Source: Robiginitomaculum sp.
GTDB taxonomy: Bacteria > Pseudomonadota > Alphaproteobacteria > Caulobacterales > Maricaulaceae
Reading direction: 5' to 3'
Assembly: GCA_021776565.1 (NCBI GenBank)
Contig: JAJFFQ010000002.1
Span: forward strand, 43,805 to 107,804
DNA: 64,000 nucleotides
The notes under the pieces are model-generated. The model worked only from the letters and a program-made list of their open reading frames with translations. It was not told the origin of the DNA and made no database searches. A program made the translations under genes and the position numbers. Shown here piece by piece: positions 50,077-61,305 of this stretch (the stretch's first letter is position 1; every line of letters starts with the position of its first letter).

Positions 50077-50112
50077 TATAACAATTGATATTGATAGTAA
50101 GGCGTATTGCCA

Positions 50113-50364
50113 ATGGTACACAATCGAATAAAGTTGTTACGCACCGAGCGAAATTTCAGCCGACAAGACCTGGCCGACGCTGTTGGCGTGAACTTTCAAA
50201 CCATAGGTTATCTGGAACGTGGTGATTATAACGCCTCGCTGGAACTGGCATTAAAACTGAGCGCTCTGTTCAGACTACCATTGGAGGAGGTTTTTTCGCT
50301 GACCGAATTTGTACCCCTCTCGCAACAATTACGTCAAAACCTGAAGCAGGAAAAGGAGGGCTGA
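50113..50364 (+). CDS. Small Xre-family HTH regulator
   Basis: NRIKLLRTERNFSRQDLADAVGVNFQTIGYLERGDYNASLELALKLSALF. Confidence 0.88.
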   Translation: MVHNRIKLLRTERNFSRQDLADAVGVNFQTIGYLERGDYNASLELALKLSALFRLPLEEVFSLTEFVPLSQQLRQNLKQEKEG

Positions 50365-50365
50365 T

Positions 50366-50821
50366 ATGTCCACCCATCAAAACACTTCCCCAATCTGGAA
50401 TGTCACTTATGCCCGCAGTCTCTCACTCATTGCCCTTATGCTGCCCATTATTGGTGGTGTTGTTTATCATGAATATGGGCAGCATTTTATCGGACGGGCA
50501 TTGCATGCGTTCAGTGTCATAACCCTGTTTCTTATGCCTGTTATGTTCAGAGAGACCCTTAATTTGGTTTTCAAAAGCAGGGGCTTGAAAGATGAATTAC
50601 AACAAAGCTGGCACGACCAGGCGGTGCGAAAATCCTATCGCGTTGTTATCGGGATCGCCTGGGTTTTGTTTTTAATTGCTGCATTTGCAACAAAATGGGC
50701 GATAAGCACTGAAGAATTAAGCGACCTCATGATGACGTTTTCCATGATAACCATCGCCTATGCCTTTATCGTTCCGTTTAGTTTCCTCGTCTGGTCAGTC
50801 AAACCATTGAGCGATGAGTAA
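50366..50821 (+). CDS. Four-TM membrane protein, paralogue of next gene
   Basis: Starts 1 nt after the HTH stop; ARSLSLIALMLPIIGGVVYHEYG ... SFLVWSVKPLSDE. Confidence 0.7.
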   Translation: MSTHQNTSPIWNVTYARSLSLIALMLPIIGGVVYHEYGQHFIGRALHAFSVITLFLMPVMFRETLNLVFKSRGLKDELQQSWHDQAVRKSYRVVIGIAWVLFLIAAFATKWAISTEELSDLMMTFSMITIAYAFIVPFSFLVWSVKPLSDE

Positions 50822-50866
50822 TGCGCCATGTTGGCGCAATTCCAACCTTATCGAAGGAGAGTAGAA

Positions 50867-51343
50867 ATGAACTCTAGCGACACACAAAACTTGCCTGTTT
50901 CATGGAATCCCGGCGCTGCGCGCACTCTTGGCGCTATCGCATTTATCATGCCGATAATCGGAGCATTACTATACCATGTAGATAGTGTTTCTGAAATCGG
51001 TCAGGCACGTTTTTTCATGAGTGTGCGCGGTGCCCTTATCGTCGGAGGTCTGGCCTCCATGATGTTTATGCCAAGGGCGTTCCGGCGCATTCTTGACAGC
51101 AAGGGCATTGCCGACGAACATGAATTATACCGACGCGCCCGCACGTTTCATACCTCATATAAACTGACCATGCTGGTCACCCTCATCTTGATTGTGATTG
51201 CCGGTTTCGCGGCTAATGAGGGGCTTGGCGGAAGGGATATGCGCAATTTACTTGTCACGGTCGGCATGTTGGTTGTGGTATATTCGATGGTTATTCCATT
51301 CAATATTCTTGCCTGGACCATGATCCCGCCCGACGAAGAATAA
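50867..51343 (+). CDS. Four-TM membrane protein, paralogue of preceding gene
   Basis: ATG 50867; ARTLGAIAFIMPIIGALLYHVDS ... NILAWTMIPPDEE. Confidence 0.7.
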   Translation: MNSSDTQNLPVSWNPGAARTLGAIAFIMPIIGALLYHVDSVSEIGQARFFMSVRGALIVGGLASMMFMPRAFRRILDSKGIADEHELYRRARTFHTSYKLTMLVTLILIVIAGFAANEGLGGRDMRNLLVTVGMLVVVYSMVIPFNILAWTMIPPDEE

Positions 51344-51430
51344 CCGCCCCGCAGCTTACCATTCAATGACCTGCCCAAAGCAGGCCACGGGGAAGCTGTG
51401 CCTAAACCATCTAAATCAAGGAGAAAAAAC

Positions 51431-52657
51431 ATGTTTAATTTCAACAAGAAAAAACTGAAGCCAGGTCATATGCTTTTGCTGGTACTGGCTGTCATTATAC
51501 CAACCACAATACAGTCAAATCATGCAAGAGCCGAACAAACCCTGGGACCGCAAAACACCGCCCGCACAATCACCCACACCATACAGTCACAATTCCCCGA
51601 ACAGCAACGCCATATCAGCGTGCATCTGCCCAAGGGTTATGCAGACAATGCCGATACACGCTATCCAGTGCTTTATATCCTCGATGCTGAAACCAATATG
51701 GATTTTACCATCGCCGTCGTCGATTTCTTGAGTGAAGGCGGGCAAATACCGGCAATGATAATTGTTGGCATTCATGCAGACGGCACCCGTGACGTGGATT
51801 ATCTGCCTAAACTTACCGACCCAGAATCACTAAAAACCGGTCTTTCCGGAGAGGCAAACCATTTTTTAACCTCTATTGAAAATGAGGTTATCCCGTTAGT
51901 GCAAAAAACCTATCGCACCACGGATTTTCGCCTGATCTCCGGTCATTCCTATGGCGGGTTGTTTGTAACCTATGCCTTGACGCAAAACCCAAAACTGTTT
52001 GCCGGTTATTTCGCCCAAAGCCCGTATTTCATGGAAGCCATAACCAGATTTTCCCTAACCAGGCTGGATGTCATGCTGCAAAATAACCCTGACATGCAGG
52101 GCGCCTATTTCATGACCCTTGGTAATGAACCGCTCCTGGCCAAGGGCTTTGCGCAGGTCGGTAACCTTTTGAAAGATAAAGCCCCCAAATCCATGCTGTA
52201 TGCCAGCACACATCAGAGCGGCAGAGATCATATGCAAACCCGCATGATAGGCATTTATGAGGCGCTGGAGCAGTATTTTGCCAAAGACTGGCCCATAATA
52301 GCGGCCATAGAGAGCGGTAACATAACCGCGCATTTTGATGGCCTTGCCAGCAAATACGGCACCAGGCCGCGCTATGAACTCAATGCCTTCGTCCAAGCCA
52401 TACAAGGGCTGTTGCAAACGGGTAAAGTTGGGCCCGGAACAGAACTTTCACAAGAATTTGTCAACCAGCACCCGGACTCGCCATTCTCTCACTTCTTGTT
52501 GTTCAACGCCTATGCCATGGGTGGAAACCGCGATAATGCTTTACGGGAAGTCAATGCGGCGATAAAAATCATTGATGAGACACCGGAGCCGAGCATGGAA
52601 ATGAAACAGCTCTACCCGCAATTAAAGCAGGTTCAAAAACAATTAGGCGGGGAATAG
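51431..52657 (+). CDS. Secreted alpha/beta hydrolase, Fes/IroE-like esterase (esterase D superfamily)
   Basis: QRHISVHLPKGYADNADTRYPVLYILDAETN; nucleophile elbow ISGHSYGGLFVTYAL. Confidence 0.85.
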   Translation: MFNFNKKKLKPGHMLLLVLAVIIPTTIQSNHARAEQTLGPQNTARTITHTIQSQFPEQQRHISVHLPKGYADNADTRYPVLYILDAETNMDFTIAVVDFLSEGGQIPAMIIVGIHADGTRDVDYLPKLTDPESLKTGLSGEANHFLTSIENEVIPLVQKTYRTTDFRLISGHSYGGLFVTYALTQNPKLFAGYFAQSPYFMEAITRFSLTRLDVMLQNNPDMQGAYFMTLGNEPLLAKGFAQVGNLLKDKAPKSMLYASTHQSGRDHMQTRMIGIYEALEQYFAKDWPIIAAIESGNITAHFDGLASKYGTRPRYELNAFVQAIQGLLQTGKVGPGTELSQEFVNQHPDSPFSHFLLFNAYAMGGNRDNALREVNAAIKIIDETPEPSMEMKQLYPQLKQVQKQLGGE

Positions 52658-53199: not shown

Positions 53200-54669
53200 T
53201 TATGCCTTGGCTTTACGTGCTGCCTTTTTGGCTTTCTTGTCCTCAATTTCCTGGGCCAGAATGGTTTGACATTCCTGGGATATTTCACCAACGCCTTCAA
53301 GAAATTCCGCGCCCATCCGTTTTTTACGGTCAGCCTGGTTTTTACACTCATCCAGTTTCACCTGGGCTTTGAAGGCTTTTTGTTTGCGGTTTACTTCAAA
53401 CTCACCATTAATGAACTTGACCCAGCCATTGGCAGTTTTTCTGGCATATGGATATTGCGCAGCCTTCCTGAATTCTACTATGGCGTCACGTGGCCTGTCC
53501 CGCTCATAGAGCGAGTTGGCGATCAGCACATAGGCGTTTCCGGGTTTTTTAATGCCTTTGGACAGGGCCTTGCGAAATGCCGTTTCGGCCTTGTCATATT
53601 GCTCTTCAGAATAATAGGCTTCGCCCAATTTTTCAAAAAGACCACCATCTGGAGAAATATCAGCCGCAGCGGTCAGCACCGGAATGGCGCGATCATATTC
53701 GCGTGCTTGACGCCACATATTGGCCAGTAATTCCAGGTTTTTCTTGGCCCGCGTGACCCGGCCGGCATTCATTTCACGTTCTAAAATTGAGGCACCGCGA
53801 TAGGGAACTTCGTAATAGCTGTAATACTGCGCCAGTGCCAGCAGCTCACGTTCCTTTTCCAGCATGCCATTCAAATACATGATTTTGTTGACTTCAAAGG
53901 CTTCGCGAGACTTGTTGGCCTGTTGTTTTAGCGATGCAATCGCTTTCCATATTTTTTTATCATCCGGCCAGATTGAAACTTCCTGCTCAAGAAGCGCCGC
54001 CTGTTTGGCAGGCATTTTCAGTTCGTGATAGATATAGTTCAAAATATCAAAATGTTTCTTTTTCTTAGGATTAGACATACGAAAGGCGCTTTGCCCATGG
54101 GGCAATGCCTTGCGATAATTATCCGCCTGCAACCATGATTGTGCGATCATCAAATGGATTTTGTCATTGGCCTTGCCGCCACTGGCCAACCATTTTTCCA
54201 AAATGGTCGCCCCTTTGACGTATTGCTCTTCGGCAATATAAAGCTGTCCAATATTGGGGGTCAGGGTGTCTATTTCGCCCTGATTGAAGGCACCGGTAGC
54301 AATCGCGGCTTCCCAGTCCCGAATGGTTCCCATATTATTGCCTAGTCCATAATTGGCACCACCGCGAATTTGGTAACTGATGGCGCGTTCATAGGGCGAC
54401 AGTTTTTCTTTTCCCAACAATTTGGTCAGCACAGAAATTGTTGTGGCATAGTCTGCCGGTTCGGCGGAGAGGGCTTCCTGTGCTGTTATAATGGCCTCAC
54501 CAGCTTCTGTGCTCAAAACCCGGCCTTCGGTTTTTTGTGTATCATCCCTGTTGCGGCGCTGCGCATCTGCTGGCCCGGTGACAAAAATCACAGCGAGCAA
54601 AGCCGTAAATGCCATCAGGCCCAATTGTTTTACCAGACCATCCTTGCGAAGCAATTGTGTAGCAATCAT
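53200..54669 (-). CDS. TPR-repeat protein associated with the TonB system
   Basis: Signal-like N-terminus; GGLFEKLGEAYYSEEQYDKAETAFRKALSKG TPR units; downstream of tonB. Confidence 0.85.
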   Translation of the reverse strand: MIATQLLRKDGLVKQLGLMAFTALLAVIFVTGPADAQRRNRDDTQKTEGRVLSTEAGEAIITAQEALSAEPADYATTISVLTKLLGKEKLSPYERAISYQIRGGANYGLGNNMGTIRDWEAAIATGAFNQGEIDTLTPNIGQLYIAEEQYVKGATILEKWLASGGKANDKIHLMIAQSWLQADNYRKALPHGQSAFRMSNPKKKKHFDILNYIYHELKMPAKQAALLEQEVSIWPDDKKIWKAIASLKQQANKSREAFEVNKIMYLNGMLEKERELLALAQYYSYYEVPYRGASILEREMNAGRVTRAKKNLELLANMWRQAREYDRAIPVLTAAADISPDGGLFEKLGEAYYSEEQYDKAETAFRKALSKGIKKPGNAYVLIANSLYERDRPRDAIVEFRKAAQYPYARKTANGWVKFINGEFEVNRKQKAFKAQVKLDECKNQADRKKRMGAEFLEGVGEISQECQTILAQEIEDKKAKKAARKAKA

Positions 54670-54697: not shown

Positions 54698-55297
54698 TTA
54701 GTCAGCCAGTTGAAACTTGAACGGTGTTATTACACCACGTCTGGCAACAGGCTTGCCATCGACAATTTTGGGGTTGTATTTCCATTTCTCGATGGCCCGT
54801 GTTGCCGCCCGGACAAACATGGATGATGAGCAGGTAACGCGAACATTATACGGTTTGCCGGTTGCGCTCACATCAAACATGCCTTCGCAGGTGCCTTCCC
54901 GGCCCTGCTCGGCGGCGCGCGGCGGATAAATCGGTTCAATACGCACCAAAGGCTGGGCATCACGATCACTGACCTGAAAATTGATATTGCCGCGATTAAG
55001 CTGCGGTGGTTCAAAATCAGGGATTGAGCCGGAAACCGAAGCAATACCCTCATTGGGCTGCACGGCTTTTTGTTTTTCAATTGCCGGCGGTGGGGGTGGG
55101 GGTTTAACGTCCTTGGTACGTTCGGGTTTGACATCGCGCTGGCGAACCTCAAGCTCCTGAACCTTGGGGTTGATGTCAAAGCGAACGGATTCTTCCTTGT
55201 CCGCCAGTTTGAAATCACCGGATATGAAAAACCGCATCAGCAGAAAAAGGCCGATTGTAATGATCGCTGCAATTGGCAATCCCATTATAAAACGCAT
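54698..55297 (-). CDS. Energy transducer TonB, copy 1
   Basis: N-terminal TM, KPPPPPP stretch, C-terminal RIEPIYPPRAAEQGREGTCEGMFDVSATG...AIEKWKYNPKIVDGKPV; start chosen at MRFIMG. Confidence 0.9.
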   Translation of the reverse strand: MRFIMGLPIAAIITIGLFLLMRFFISGDFKLADKEESVRFDINPKVQELEVRQRDVKPERTKDVKPPPPPPAIEKQKAVQPNEGIASVSGSIPDFEPPQLNRGNINFQVSDRDAQPLVRIEPIYPPRAAEQGREGTCEGMFDVSATGKPYNVRVTCSSSMFVRAATRAIEKWKYNPKIVDGKPVARRGVITPFKFQLAD

Positions 55298-55568
55298 CAA
55301 CAACTCCTGTTGCTTATCACCGCACCCTGGCTCCCGTGGTGATTCAATTTTGCGGGCGTTTACGCCTCTTCCCTGAATCACCGATATTATATTCGGCGGT
55401 TATGACATCCTACCGGCTAGAATCCAATGCGAATAGTCTTTTTTTGCCTGTATTATGCAAATCATAGACAAACTCACACCTTGTCTGGTTCTCACACAAC
55501 AATGAGGCGACTTTTGGGCCAGCACCACAACCTGCCGGTTTGTTTATGGCTCTGGCGATTCAATACAT

Positions 55569-56207
55569 TTAATTTGCAAGGGTAAACTTGAACGGCGTCA
55601 CAAGCCCACGCCGAATTACGGCCTTGCCATCGACAATTTTGGGGTTGTATTTCCATTTCTCGATGGCTCGTGTCGCCGCCCGAACAAACAGGGGCGATGA
55701 ACAGGTAACGCGAACATTGTACGGTTTGCCGATGGCACTCACATCAAACAGGCCTTCGCAAACACCCTCCTTGCCCTGATCTATCGCGCGCGGCGGATAG
55801 ACCGGCTCTATACGCACCAATGGCCGGGCATCACGATCAGTAACAACCATAGACAGCTTGCCCGGCTGGATAGCTGGCGGGTTCAAATCCGGAATGGTGT
55901 ATTTAGCAATCGCTTCATCTGGCCGCTTTGCTGTTTGATTGCTAATCCTGGGTGGTGGCGGTGGCGGCGTAACGTCCTTTATCCGCTCGGGTATGGCCTT
56001 GCGCGTGTTTGGCGGTATGGGTTTAACAATTGGGTTAATATCATACGTCTCGCGCTCTTCGGCTTCAGATAAAACAATTGGCATGGAAACCATCCATCGC
56101 ATCAGCAAAAACAGGGCCAGTGTAATGGCCCCGGCCAATGGCAAAACGGCCATAAGTCGTGCGTTTTTCTGCTCGCCTGCTGTTCCCTTCATAACCAATG
56201 TTGTCAT
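55569..56207 (-). CDS. Energy transducer TonB, copy 2 (paralogue)
   Basis: VTPPPPPPR; RIEPVYPPRAIDQGKEGVCEGLFDVSAIG...AIEKWKYNPKIVDGKAV. Confidence 0.9.
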   Translation of the reverse strand: MTTLVMKGTAGEQKNARLMAVLPLAGAITLALFLLMRWMVSMPIVLSEAEERETYDINPIVKPIPPNTRKAIPERIKDVTPPPPPPRISNQTAKRPDEAIAKYTIPDLNPPAIQPGKLSMVVTDRDARPLVRIEPVYPPRAIDQGKEGVCEGLFDVSAIGKPYNVRVTCSSPLFVRAATRAIEKWKYNPKIVDGKAVIRRGLVTPFKFTLAN

Positions 56208-56299
56208 AACGATCTCCCCTGCTCGGTGTGCAAAACGGATGTTGCACGCATTACGTTTTCGCAATACTGGGGCAAAATATGGGCTGAACTTTGGTTAAA

Positions 56300-57253
56300 T
56301 TATGCCGATCCGTCGTGTTCACGCTGTATTGACCAGGCACCGCCGGCCCCTTCAACCTGCTCAACAATACCCACAATCACGCCATGGCTGGCATCATCAT
56401 CGGGCGAGATCAACACACCGGATCGGGTGTGCTCTGCCCGCAGGCTGGAAACCCTGGCACCAACCAGTGCCAGATCGGTAAGCTGCTGATTTATATACAC
56501 CTGGTCGCGATCTGTGATTTGAACCAGGATGAGCGGATCCGGGTTCAGGATTACTGTGTCGTCGGTACGTGGCGGCGGAACCAGGTTTATGGTTTTTTCC
56601 TGCACAAAAACCGACGTGACAATGAAGAAGATCAACATAATGAAAACAATGTCGAGCATGGGCGTCATATCAACCTCGGTGTTGTCATTGCCCATTTTTC
56701 TGCCCATTTTGCGGCTGTCCGCACTGCCCGGTTCCAGTGATGTTTTCAGTCTGGCTACGACTTTGCGTGACCGACGTTCCAGCCGCCGGGCAACAATAAG
56801 TCCGGAAATTGCCGCAACCATTCCCGCCATAGTGGTCACCGTGGCATTGGAAACACCCGCCGACATGGCCCGCACATCAGATGCACCCGTTGAAGCCATA
56901 ACATCAAAAACGGTTATCATGCCGGTGACCGTGCCCAACAGCCCGAGCAAGGGCGATATGGCAACAAGGGTAAGAATGAGCGCGATATTGTGCTCGGCAT
57001 TTTGCTGTAATCTTGAAATCAGCAGCGCCCGGTTTTTCTGTGCATACCAGGATTTATGCTCAGCTCGTCTATGCCAGATAGCTTGCGCCCTTTTGGCCTC
57101 TTTTGGTTCGGCAAAGCTAAAATAGGCCAAACGTTCGACAATCAACGCCCACATCAAAAATGTTGTGACCATAATAAGCGACAAAACCGGGCCACCGATC
57201 TCAAGAAAGCCTTGCAAACTTTCAACCGCCCGTAATATATCCCAAGACCCCAA
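56300..57253 (-). CDS. Fused ExbB-ExbD protein in one ORF
   Basis: Residues 1 to ~180 ExbB (SPLLGLLGTVTGMITVFDVMASTGASDVRAMSAGVSNATVTTMAGMVAAISGL), then ExbD (EVDMTPMLDIVFIMLIFFIVTSVFVQEKTINLVPPP); no stop between. Confidence 0.9.
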   Translation of the reverse strand: MGSWDILRAVESLQGFLEIGGPVLSLIMVTTFLMWALIVERLAYFSFAEPKEAKRAQAIWHRRAEHKSWYAQKNRALLISRLQQNAEHNIALILTLVAISPLLGLLGTVTGMITVFDVMASTGASDVRAMSAGVSNATVTTMAGMVAAISGLIVARRLERRSRKVVARLKTSLEPGSADSRKMGRKMGNDNTEVDMTPMLDIVFIMLIFFIVTSVFVQEKTINLVPPPRTDDTVILNPDPLILVQITDRDQVYINQQLTDLALVGARVSSLRAEHTRSGVLISPDDDASHGVIVGIVEQVEGAGGAWSIQREHDGSA

Positions 57254-57382
57254 ACGACGCCCCTCCCATTTTCACCACGCTCTATGCGGTGTTTGGTCAG
57301 GAGAGTTTACTGTAATTGAGCACGCACAGGGAAAGCTGCGACTATAGGTCGCCCGTCTGGTCTCATGTGCTTGCTATATATA

Positions 57383-57446: not shown

Positions 57447-57848
57447 TTACTGGTCGATAGAAACTTTCACAGGAATACCAATAGAGAGAAATATATCCTG
57501 AACATCCAGAACTGTGCCGATTTTTGCCAGTTGATCCCCCTGGATTACGCCTTCGGCCTTGGGGTTCTCGGCCTTCATTTTTTCAAGAACCGTGCTGACA
57601 CCAGCCAGGGGAACAATCTTCTTGTTGATCCATATCTGGTTATCATTGGCCACGGCCACCATGATGGATGGTTTTTCGGCATTCAGATCCTGTGTCCACA
57701 ATGGTTTGTTAATATCAACACCTGGTTCTTTAACAAAAACGGCGGTGACGATAAAGAAAATCAACAAAATGAAAACAACGTCCAACATGGGCGTCATGTC
57801 CATTTCTACATCTTCTGCCTTGCTTGCCTGGCGTGATCTTGCCATCAC
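57447..57848 (-). CDS. ExbD/TolR family protein, second ExbD of the operon
   Basis: VEMDMTPMLDVVFILLIFFIVTAVFVKEPGVDI. Confidence 0.92.
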   Translation of the reverse strand: MMARSRQASKAEDVEMDMTPMLDVVFILLIFFIVTAVFVKEPGVDINKPLWTQDLNAEKPSIMVAVANDNQIWINKKIVPLAGVSTVLEKMKAENPKAEGVIQGDQLAKIGTVLDVQDIFLSIGIPVKVSIDQ

Positions 57849-57890: not shown

Positions 57891-58301
57891 TTATGAACCA
57901 CCAGCCGCCCGTTGTATCATCGTTGGTGCGCCGGTATTCCTGGCCGCCTCAAACACGGTAATAATAACACCGTGACTGGCCTCGTCATCTGGCACAATCA
58001 GGATCGCACTATCACCCTTGTCAGCCCGGAACCGTTCAATCGCAGGGCCAACCCGGCGCAGATCCGTCAGTTGATCGTTGACGAAAATGACATCCCGGTC
58101 ATTGACCTGAATCAGGATCACAGGATTGGATTTTTCCGGCTCATTATCCGACGGCGGCGGCGGCACCAGAGAAATTGACCGTTCCTGAACAAAAACGGCG
58201 GTAACAATAAAGAAAATCAGCAGGATAAAAACAATGTCCAGCATCGGTGTCATATCGACATCGACTTCTTCCTGCTCACGACGGCGTCCACCTCTACGCA
58301 T
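57891..58301 (-). CDS. exbD: ExbD/TolR family protein
   Basis: VDVDMTPMLDIVFILLIFFIVTAVFVQERSISLVPPP. Confidence 0.93.
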   Translation of the reverse strand: MRRGGRRREQEEVDVDMTPMLDIVFILLIFFIVTAVFVQERSISLVPPPPSDNEPEKSNPVILIQVNDRDVIFVNDQLTDLRRVGPAIERFRADKGDSAILIVPDDEASHGVIITVFEAARNTGAPTMIQRAAGGS

Positions 58302-58310
58302 AGTGACGAC

Positions 58311-58844
58311 CTACCCTAGTTCCATGGCATCAGCGACGGATTGTGTGGCCCGTAAGCCCCGCCGCTCAAGCCGGTTAGTGAAAATCAGCCCCGAAAGTGC
58401 CGCAACCATGCCCGCCATTGTCGGAATGGTGGCCTTGGACACACCGGCCGACATGGCCCGCACATTGGATGATCCGGTCGCCGCCATAACGTCGAATACC
58501 TCAATCATGCCCGTCACCGTACCAAGCAGACCAAGAAGCGGTGCAATAGCAACCAGGGTCTTGATAAACTTGATGTTCTGTTCGGTTTTCTGACGCACTT
58601 CGGAAATCAGCTTGTCCCGAATTGCGTGGGCATACCAGGACTTGTGGTCATCCCGCGACGCCCATTTGTTGACCGCCTTTTTGACGATACTCCGATGGGC
58701 AAACTGATAGTAAGCCATCCGTTCCAGGATAAAAGCCCACATAAAAAATGTGGCGACCATAATCAGCAGGAGAACATTCCCACCCATCTCCAGAAACTGC
58801 TGGAGATTGCTTAAGGCCGTCATTGGGTTGAGCCAAATGGGCAT
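58311..58844 (-). CDS. exbB: ExbB (MotA/TolQ/ExbB family)
   Basis: APLLGLLGTVTGMIEVFDVMAATGSSNVRAMSAGVSKATIPTMAGMVAALSGL. Confidence 0.93.
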   Translation of the reverse strand: MPIWLNPMTALSNLQQFLEMGGNVLLLIMVATFFMWAFILERMAYYQFAHRSIVKKAVNKWASRDDHKSWYAHAIRDKLISEVRQKTEQNIKFIKTLVAIAPLLGLLGTVTGMIEVFDVMAATGSSNVRAMSAGVSKATIPTMAGMVAALSGLIFTNRLERRGLRATQSVADAMELG

Positions 58845-58875: not shown

Positions 58876-60276
58876 CTATTTACTGCTGGTACGGGCTTCG
58901 GCATTCGCCGCAACCAGACCGGCGGCCTGCTCTTCCAGCACTTGCTGCAAAGAACGGCTCGCAGAGGAGCAGAAGCTGTGCAACAGCAGCAGAGGAATAG
59001 CCGACAGAAGGCCCAGAACCGTAGTCACCAGAGCGAAAGAGATACCATCAGCCATAAGCTGTGGATCGCCAGCACCAAACAGGGTAATCGCCTGGAAGGT
59101 CTGGATCATCCCGATAACCGTACCCAGAAGTCCCATTAGTGGTGAGACAGCGGCCAGCACCTTGATAAGGCTCAGACCAAAGTCCAGCTTGCCGCTTTCT
59201 TTGAGGATTGCATCATCAAGTTTAAGTTCGATGGTTTCAATATCCTTGTCCTTGGCACTTTCATAGGCAGCCATGATGCGGCCCAAAGGATTACCCTTGC
59301 CAGGTTTCGAGCGGCGCATTTGTGCCCGAACAGCCATTGAGGTGGTGAACAGGGCGAACAGGCGCCAGATACCAATGAATACACCAATGGCAGCCATAAT
59401 ACTCACCGCATAGCCGATATTCCCACCAGCGTGGTAACGTTCAGCCAGGGTTGGCGTACGCACAACAAGGCCCAAAAGCACGCCGCGTGTGGGGTCAACA
59501 GGGCCTTTGACAACCTTGTCCGGGCTGCCATTGCTGACATTACGGGCAAGACCGCGCAAACGACCAGAAGGCTGACGTGACAGCAAACCAAGCTCACCGT
59601 CTTCAACTTTCAAAAAGCTGGCGTCTTTGGCCACCCATGAAGTAAACGGGCCAACACGGGTAATATCTACCGGCGCCCCATCATCCACATCAGCAATGGA
59701 GCCGGAATAGGTAATAATCTGTCCCTGGGCTGCTGCTTCCTGCAATATGGTTTTGTAGATATTTTCAAGCTCATAGACTTCCGGCAGCTTGGAACTGTTG
59801 GCAACTTCGCCAAGTTCTTCACCACGCCCCGGGAACTGACCGGAGATAAAGGAAATATCAACAACGGCCTTGATTTCACCAGCAGCCTGACGGGCGGCAC
59901 CAAACAACTCACCGAAAGAGCCTTGCGCAACGCGCAACTCTTCATCCAGTTTCAAAACCAGCGCCTTGTTGGCATCCAGCTTGTTGTTATTGGAGGATTC
60001 CTGCCCCCGAAGTGCTCTCAATTGTGACTTGGCCGTATTCAGCAAACGTTGCTGCTGGGCCTTTTTTTGTGTGAATTCCTGCACACGTCGCTGTGCTTCG
60101 GCATTGGCTTCGCGACTGTCGCGACCAACGCGGGCAATCAACTCGTCAATGGACTGAACCGGCGTTGCCTGTGCAAAGGCTGGCCCGGCAGGAACGATCA
60201 GGGTAGCGGCGCTTAACGCAGCGGCACCCAGAAGCGATTTCATATTATATATCATAGCTTTTCTCGCCTCTTTCAC
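58876..60276 (-). CDS. TtpC-like long ExbB/TolQ protein with N-terminal signal peptide and coiled-coil
   Basis: Signal peptide, coiled-coil, C-terminal SPLMGLLGTVIGMIQTFQAITLFGAGDPQLMADGISFALVTTVLGLLSAIPLLL; ORF stop/start coupled to DUF3450 gene. Start may be 60255 or 60243. Confidence 0.9.
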   Translation of the reverse strand: MKEARKAMIYNMKSLLGAAALSAATLIVPAGPAFAQATPVQSIDELIARVGRDSREANAEAQRRVQEFTQKKAQQQRLLNTAKSQLRALRGQESSNNNKLDANKALVLKLDEELRVAQGSFGELFGAARQAAGEIKAVVDISFISGQFPGRGEELGEVANSSKLPEVYELENIYKTILQEAAAQGQIITYSGSIADVDDGAPVDITRVGPFTSWVAKDASFLKVEDGELGLLSRQPSGRLRGLARNVSNGSPDKVVKGPVDPTRGVLLGLVVRTPTLAERYHAGGNIGYAVSIMAAIGVFIGIWRLFALFTTSMAVRAQMRRSKPGKGNPLGRIMAAYESAKDKDIETIELKLDDAILKESGKLDFGLSLIKVLAAVSPLMGLLGTVIGMIQTFQAITLFGAGDPQLMADGISFALVTTVLGLLSAIPLLLLHSFCSSASRSLQQVLEEQAAGLVAANAEARTSSK

Positions 60277-61046
60277 TATTGTGCTTTCGTTGCGCCAGGC
60301 AACGGTGCGGGGAAGACTTCAGGGGTTTTTTGCTCTAGTGCAATACGGATTGCAGACTGAACATCCAGCTTGTAGCTGTCTGGCAGATCATCATACGCGC
60401 CAGTTGTCTTGTTAAAAATATGAACTTTCTGGTTGCTGTCCGTGTAGAGCAGAGCGACCCGGCCAATGCGCAGAAACTCGACCTTGCGAGGTTCGCCGCT
60501 AATCAGCACATTTTCAGTATATGACGTTGTCTGGTTGCCGTAGGAAAGCTCGATCTGATACGCATTCATGATTTGCCGATAAAGTTCAGCAGGAGACTGA
60601 TTGGGATCACCGGCCAGTTCCTTAAGCTTGGTAATGCGTCCGTCGCGCTCTTCCATCTGGAAGGGCATATCCGAAGCAACGAAAGCTTCCAGTGCGCCAA
60701 TCATGCGTAGCATCATCGGCAGCAGTTGAGCCTGGATATCACCCACGCGATCAATCTGTCCGCGTATCGAATCGATTTCATTTTCCTGGGATTTCAGAAA
60801 AATCTTTTGCTGATCGACATTCAGAGCCACAGTATCTTTTTCCTGCAATGCGGCGCGAAACTCGCGCACAACATCGCCAACCTGATCGTCAATACGGTCA
60901 ATACGCGCTTGCGCTGTTGCACCGGCAGACGTTGAACGCTCTGCTGTATTTATCGCAGAAGAAAGCTGCGCCTGTGCCGCGCCACCAAATGCGGCAACTG
61001 CAAGCGCCGCAACACTAATGCGCGTCATTAATTTGAACTTCGTCAT
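60276..61046 (-). CDS. DUF3450 family periplasmic protein of the TonB system
   Basis: Signal peptide MTKFKLMTRISVAALAVAAFGGAAQAQ; coiled coil; MMLRMIGALEAFVASDMPFQMEERDGRI; position ahead of ttpC-exbB. Confidence 0.88.
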   Translation of the reverse strand: MTKFKLMTRISVAALAVAAFGGAAQAQLSSAINTAERSTSAGATAQARIDRIDDQVGDVVREFRAALQEKDTVALNVDQQKIFLKSQENEIDSIRGQIDRVGDIQAQLLPMMLRMIGALEAFVASDMPFQMEERDGRITKLKELAGDPNQSPAELYRQIMNAYQIELSYGNQTTSYTENVLISGEPRKVEFLRIGRVALLYTDSNQKVHIFNKTTGAYDDLPDSYKLDVQSAIRIALEQKTPEVFPAPLPGATKAQ

Positions 61047-61144
61047 GCCATGCTCCAAAAAAGAACCCCACGCGACCAGACGAAAAGGCCACGCCACAAA
61101 TTCTAAAAAAGGTTTGACAGAAATCTGCCTACCACCCTGCAAAT

Positions 61145-61305
61145 GATGCAAAGCTGCATCCCGCCACCAACAGCGGTCAAGTTGGAAGAGATTCTAGTTG
61201 CGCGTGCAACTGCTTCCCCTTCTGGCCGCAGCGGTTAATCCGCTGTCTTCTGAACTGCGGCGGTTGACTCGCCGTCACTCAGTGCCCGGTGACGAACCTC
61301 GTCAC
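61145..61305 (-). promoter_or_regulatory. Structured region: six consecutive perfect stem-loops upstream of the Ton operon
   Basis: GTGACGA/TCGTCAC (61289-61305), CGGCG/CGCCG (61258-61274), CAGCGG/CCGCTG (61229-61245), AGTTGC/GCAACT (61196-61211), CCAAC/GTTGG (61167-61185), GATGCA/TGCATC (61145-61160). Confidence 0.75.

Follow-up and report, generated by a model that had tools for sequence, protein, structure and literature searches.

The window, a 64,000-nucleotide stretch of Robiginitomaculum sp. DNA, contains a gene in which an ExbB-type proton-channel subunit and an ExbD-type subunit are joined in one continuous reading frame, beside the unfused genes of a Ton motor. Orthologous fusions occur in three other members of the genus. 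We put at roughly even odds the full explanation that this is a natural, selected fusion which arose by stop codon loss, assembles with the unfused ExbB2 into a mixed ring at the 5:2 ratio, and mainly energizes the extra TonB encoded next to it (TonB_a). We place somewhat more trust in a broader statement, that the gene contributes to a tethered Ton motor in which ring or axle does not consist of identical separate subunits, whether as a mixed ring or as a ring of five fusions, and that this motor is dedicated to its own TonB.

The original prediction of one 317-amino-acid open reading frame uniting two complete subunits was borne out by the domain content. Across its 317 codons the frame has no internal stop, and the same chain matches PF01618 (MotA_ExbB) over residues 71 to 169 at 80.1 bits (Pfam cutoff, 22.9) and PF02472 (ExbD) over residues 190 to 305 at 83.9 bits (Pfam cutoff, 25.4). 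Scores against the NCBI equivalogs for ExbB, ExbD, TolQ, and TolR all fall below the curated cutoffs, as do those of the unfused ExbB2 and ExbD1. The TTG start codon is preceded by a strong Shine-Dalgarno sequence, GGGAGGGG, with a duplex energy of −10.7 kcal/mol, compared to a mean of −2.2 for random 20-mers. A promoter and terminator scan returned promoter matches no more often than chance. An AlphaFold2 monomer model of moderate confidence (pLDDT 68, pTM 0.42) matches E. coli ExbB and the periplasmic domain of ExbD in fold, and residues 177 to 199, with pLDDT below 50, are predicted to form a disordered linker between the folded halves. The product would be a membrane protein of full length, in which three ExbB helices are connected through a flexible linker in the cytoplasm to an ExbD pore helix and then a periplasmic domain. 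The coordinates of the fusion, its parts, and its neighbors are given in Table 1.

Table 1. The ExbB-ExbD fusion gene and surrounding Ton operon, in window coordinates
Feature	Position	Strand	Description
DUF3450 protein	60276..61151	minus	TtpB-like position
Long ExbB	58876..60276	minus	N-terminal extension; TtpC-like
ExbB2	58311..58844	minus	Unfused; paralogue of fusion ExbB half
ExbD1	57891..58301	minus	Unfused; paralogue of fusion ExbD half
ExbD2	57447..57848	minus	Unfused
Shine-Dalgarno GGGAGGGG	57260..57267	minus	For the TTG start of the fusion
ExbB-ExbD fusion gene	56300..57253	minus	317 aa; TTG start; stop included
ExbB-type half	56726..57253	minus	Residues 1-176; pore threonines T108 and T141
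Junction/linker	56675..56725	minus	Residues 177-193; would correspond to the lost stop, spacer, and ExbD N-terminal tail of the unfused pair
ExbD-type half	56303..56674	minus	Residues 194-317; pore TM with D201, and periplasmic domain
TonB_a	55569..56264	minus	Extra TonB travelling with the fusion
TonB_b	54698..55381	minus	Conserved TonB of the operon
TPR protein	53200..54669	minus	At operon end; position and type of TtpD

The same unbroken fusion frame was found in three separately assembled congeneric genomes (G003, G001, and G009, with 70, 69, and 64% identity to the window fusion, respectively), in a search of 61 related genomes and then 137 genomes of the family. In all three the linker sequence has diverged and is still open. 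A sequencing error hiding a stop or frameshift, which had been named as the result that would overturn the prediction, is excluded by these independent orthologues, since the same error cannot have arisen in four assemblies made separately, with different codons around it each time. No further ExbB-ExbD fusion was seen beyond the four in the 137 family genomes, sampling of 385 alphaproteobacterial, 369 gammaproteobacterial, and 399 genomes from across the phylum gave none, and among 581 related genome-contig loci the 80 best held none besides one of the four. Reading 16 loci, most of them chosen for oddly long frames, likewise revealed no ExbB-ExbD fusion, and plasmid records among the matches listed have two annotated genes wherever the match carries annotation. 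No solved chain in the PDB matches both halves, and no natural ExbB-ExbD, TolQ-TolR, or MotA-MotB fusion was found in the literature searched, which included few subscription journals. We claim rarity of the fusion among relatives, not uniqueness. A gammaproteobacterial genome (G916, L141:738-3158, minus strand) encodes an 807-amino-acid frame with ExbB matches at residues 552 to 606 and 644 to 796, which looks like a long ExbB joined to a second ExbB domain, that is, an ExbB-ExbB fusion, in an operon of the same kind.

Thirteen congeneric loci share the operon order DUF3450, long ExbB, ExbB2, ExbD1, ExbD2, TonB_b, and TPR. In all four fusion species, the fusion and one extra TonB gene form a cassette between ExbD2 and TonB_b, and the unfused ExbB2-ExbD1 pair is present at each of these loci. 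In Vibrio TonB2 systems, TtpC, TtpB, and the TPR protein TtpD accompany ExbB, ExbD, and TonB, and iron transport by the TonB2 system of Vibrio vulnificus depends on TtpB2 and TtpD2 (PMC6957404). Like Ton systems of the Vibrio TonB2/TonB3 type, the operon in the window combines a long, TtpC-like ExbB, a short ExbB2, ExbD, a short TonB, and a TtpD-like TPR protein, but it differs in having two separate ExbDs and, in four species, the added cassette of an ExbB-ExbD fusion and a second TonB. At either end of the operon, the genes for the DUF3450 and TPR proteins are likened to TtpB and TtpD by position and domain type.

The TonBs that accompany the fusions differ between species (39 to 55% mutual identity), and the one linked to the G009 fusion is 78% like TonB_b; judging from these sequences, the fusion-linked TonBs may not be one orthologous partner across species. 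Besides ExbD1, ExbD2, and the fusion, the genome of the window encodes a single further ExbD-type protein, on another contig, which is taken to be TolR; the genome also has four TonB C-terminal domains and 19 matches to the TonB-dependent receptor barrel. Several other features of these loci were observed. In G017, which the operon tree places as the sister species to the window genome, a TonB_a-like gene (64%; L044:6697-7437, plus strand) occupies the cassette position but there is no fusion, possibly a case of partial cassette loss. G013 and G008 (L042:1964-2644 and L047:3712-4419) also have no fusion and carry an extra TonB on the downstream side of the TPR gene. In G012 (L040:2880-4356), the TPR gene is split into two overlapping frames, which suggests a frameshift. 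On the plus strand of the window, two neighboring and apparently related membrane proteins of 151 and 171 amino acids, the former with no Pfam match, are encoded after a small HTH regulator (50107..51343), and a putative esterase (PF00756) with a C-terminal extension (51398..52657) points toward the end of the Ton operon from the opposite strand.

We attribute the fusion to the ExbB2-ExbD1 pair of the same genus. When ExbB and ExbD sequences are concatenated, the resulting tree unites the four fusions in a single clade (support 100/100), nested within a 21-row group that contains the ExbB2-ExbD1 pairs of the genus (99/97). This topology indicates that the four known copies had one origin and that they descend from a copy of that pair; acquisition from outside the genus is unsupported, with the fusions falling inside the genus group. 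In the window, exbB2 and exbD1 share a reading frame, with one TAG and three codons between them, and in many unfused relatives the two genes are similarly in one frame with a single stop between them. Reading through this stop gives a sequence that aligns to the fusion with a junction gap of only 1 or 2 residues. Since the unfused genes are in frame and this close, duplication plus one stop loss suffices to explain the origin, and the simplest history would be that the pair was duplicated and the single stop between the two in-frame genes was then lost, leaving a linker made of the old ExbB end, the spacer, and the ExbD N-terminal tail. The neighboring ExbB2-ExbD1 pair is accordingly a paralogue with identical order and frame, which differs from the fusion in its retained stop codon and slower evolution; the two are 60% identical over ExbB2 and 51 to 53% over ExbD1. 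The cassette is patchy within the genus, with a presence pattern that requires four changes on the 13-genome operon tree, which means that it has been lost or transferred within the genus and is dispensable over evolutionary time. No fusion remnants were detected by tblastn in congeners that lack it.

Comparison of the four fusions indicates that both halves are maintained by purifying selection, with synonymous divergence near saturation (pS of 0.60 to 0.78) against 0.13 to 0.29 nonsynonymous differences per site in both halves. The fusion evolves faster than the unfused ExbB2-ExbD1. Identity among the fusions is 81 to 90% over the pore helices TM2-TM3 and 83 to 100% over the ExbD helix but only 6 to 24% over the linker, whose length from the LEP to the VDMTP motif is held at 17 to 18 residues while its sequence is free. 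The essential residues T108, T141, and D201 are invariant in all four fusions and align to E. coli ExbB/TolQ and TolR; we take them to be the equivalents of ExbB T148 and T181 and ExbD D25, respectively. By sequence, then, both halves and the residues of the proton path have been kept. The fusion resembles the ExbB-ExbD and TolQ-TolR 5:2 motors in having both Pfam families and the pore Thr and Asp residues, and differs in that the subunits of those motors are separate whereas here they form one chain. Separate ExbB-type and ExbD-type chains are a trait of the ExbBD/TolQR/MotAB family that the adjoining unfused pair shares and the fusion lacks.

Most solved motors of this kind have two ExbD or TolR helices inside a ring of five ExbB or TolQ subunits (PMC12905483), a ratio at odds with a 1:1 chain. 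Of the three ways out offered by the original prediction, mixed complexes with the upstream unfused subunits fit best, the unfused pair being present in every genome with a fusion. We favor mixed pentamers of three ExbB2 and two fusion chains, because of that constant association and because the pore-forming parts stay alike: in the window, fusion and ExbB2-ExbD1 are 81% identical over TM2-TM3 and 91% over the ExbD helix, compared to 47% for the periplasmic domain and 41% for the cytoplasmic loop. Conservation at the pore interface together with divergence of the outer parts fits co-assembly with a separate output, but conservation of pore helices between paralogues is expected anyway from their shared chemistry and only permits mixing. 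In such an assembly, both ExbD helices of the pore and two of the ring's five ExbB positions would come from a pair of fusion chains, with unfused ExbB2 in the other three positions, and the 5:2 ratio would be kept. The tether would guarantee this motor the divergent ExbD domain that the fusion itself carries, in place of ExbD1 or ExbD2, and the fusion would act as a proton-driven Ton motor subunit that mainly energizes TonB_a.

In decreasing order of probability, the remaining alternatives are rings of five fusions, proteolysis of the linker, and internal initiation. An unlikely arrangement, if one worth weighing, is a ring of five fusion chains with two ExbD helices in the pore and three outside it, which together with TonB_a would make a self-contained second motor. 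The compact cassette of fusion and extra TonB would suit such a motor, as would rapid divergence from ExbB2-ExbD1, which fits an insulated complex, and a disordered linker of about 23 residues would allow surplus ExbD helices a place beyond the ring. However, this would depart from the two-helix pattern of most solved motors, three unpaired helices with a buried Asp would presumably be costly, and we found no genome that has the fusion and lacks the unfused pair.

We regard as less probable still that a membrane-associated protease cuts the linker to release ordinary ExbB and ExbD, in which case the fusion would be a neutral means of co-expressing a second pair. A disordered linker that is free to vary in sequence would tolerate a cut, yet no conserved cleavage motif is visible in it, its length is nevertheless constant, and four diverging lineages have regained no stop. 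Internal translation initiation, by which free ExbD would also be made and added to the complex, seems improbable. The in-frame ATGs predicted at 56707 and 56695 are present and, as predicted, have no obvious Shine-Dalgarno sequence, their upstream pairing being weak (−3.2 and −3.5); they are absent from the other three species, so that no linker start codon is conserved across the fusions and initiation within the linker is disfavored. The ATG of the VDMTP motif is found in all four fusions, with upstream pairing of −3.7 to −6.6 kcal/mol, but VDMTP also occurs in unfused ExbD, such that conservation of this codon needs no translational reason, and a start there would remove the cytoplasmic N terminus. 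Least credible is a functionless duplicate in decay, or an assembly or sequencing artifact, since the faster divergence and patchy distribution that might suggest decay are countered by purifying selection on both halves and by intact frames and invariant catalytic residues in four separately assembled copies.

In current rotary models, the 5:2 ratio of ExbB-type motors holds a central place. A tether between a ring subunit and the axle should limit full rotation unless the linker can wind or swivel, and this naturally occurring, selected single-chain ExbB-ExbD is a ready-made means of asking whether free turning of ExbD relative to each ExbB is necessary. The gene would also be a clear case of fusion through loss of a single stop between in-frame neighbors after duplication. 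Altogether, four related bacteria with a fused second copy beside their normal motor genes represent an unusual natural test of how a 5:2 motor can be built.
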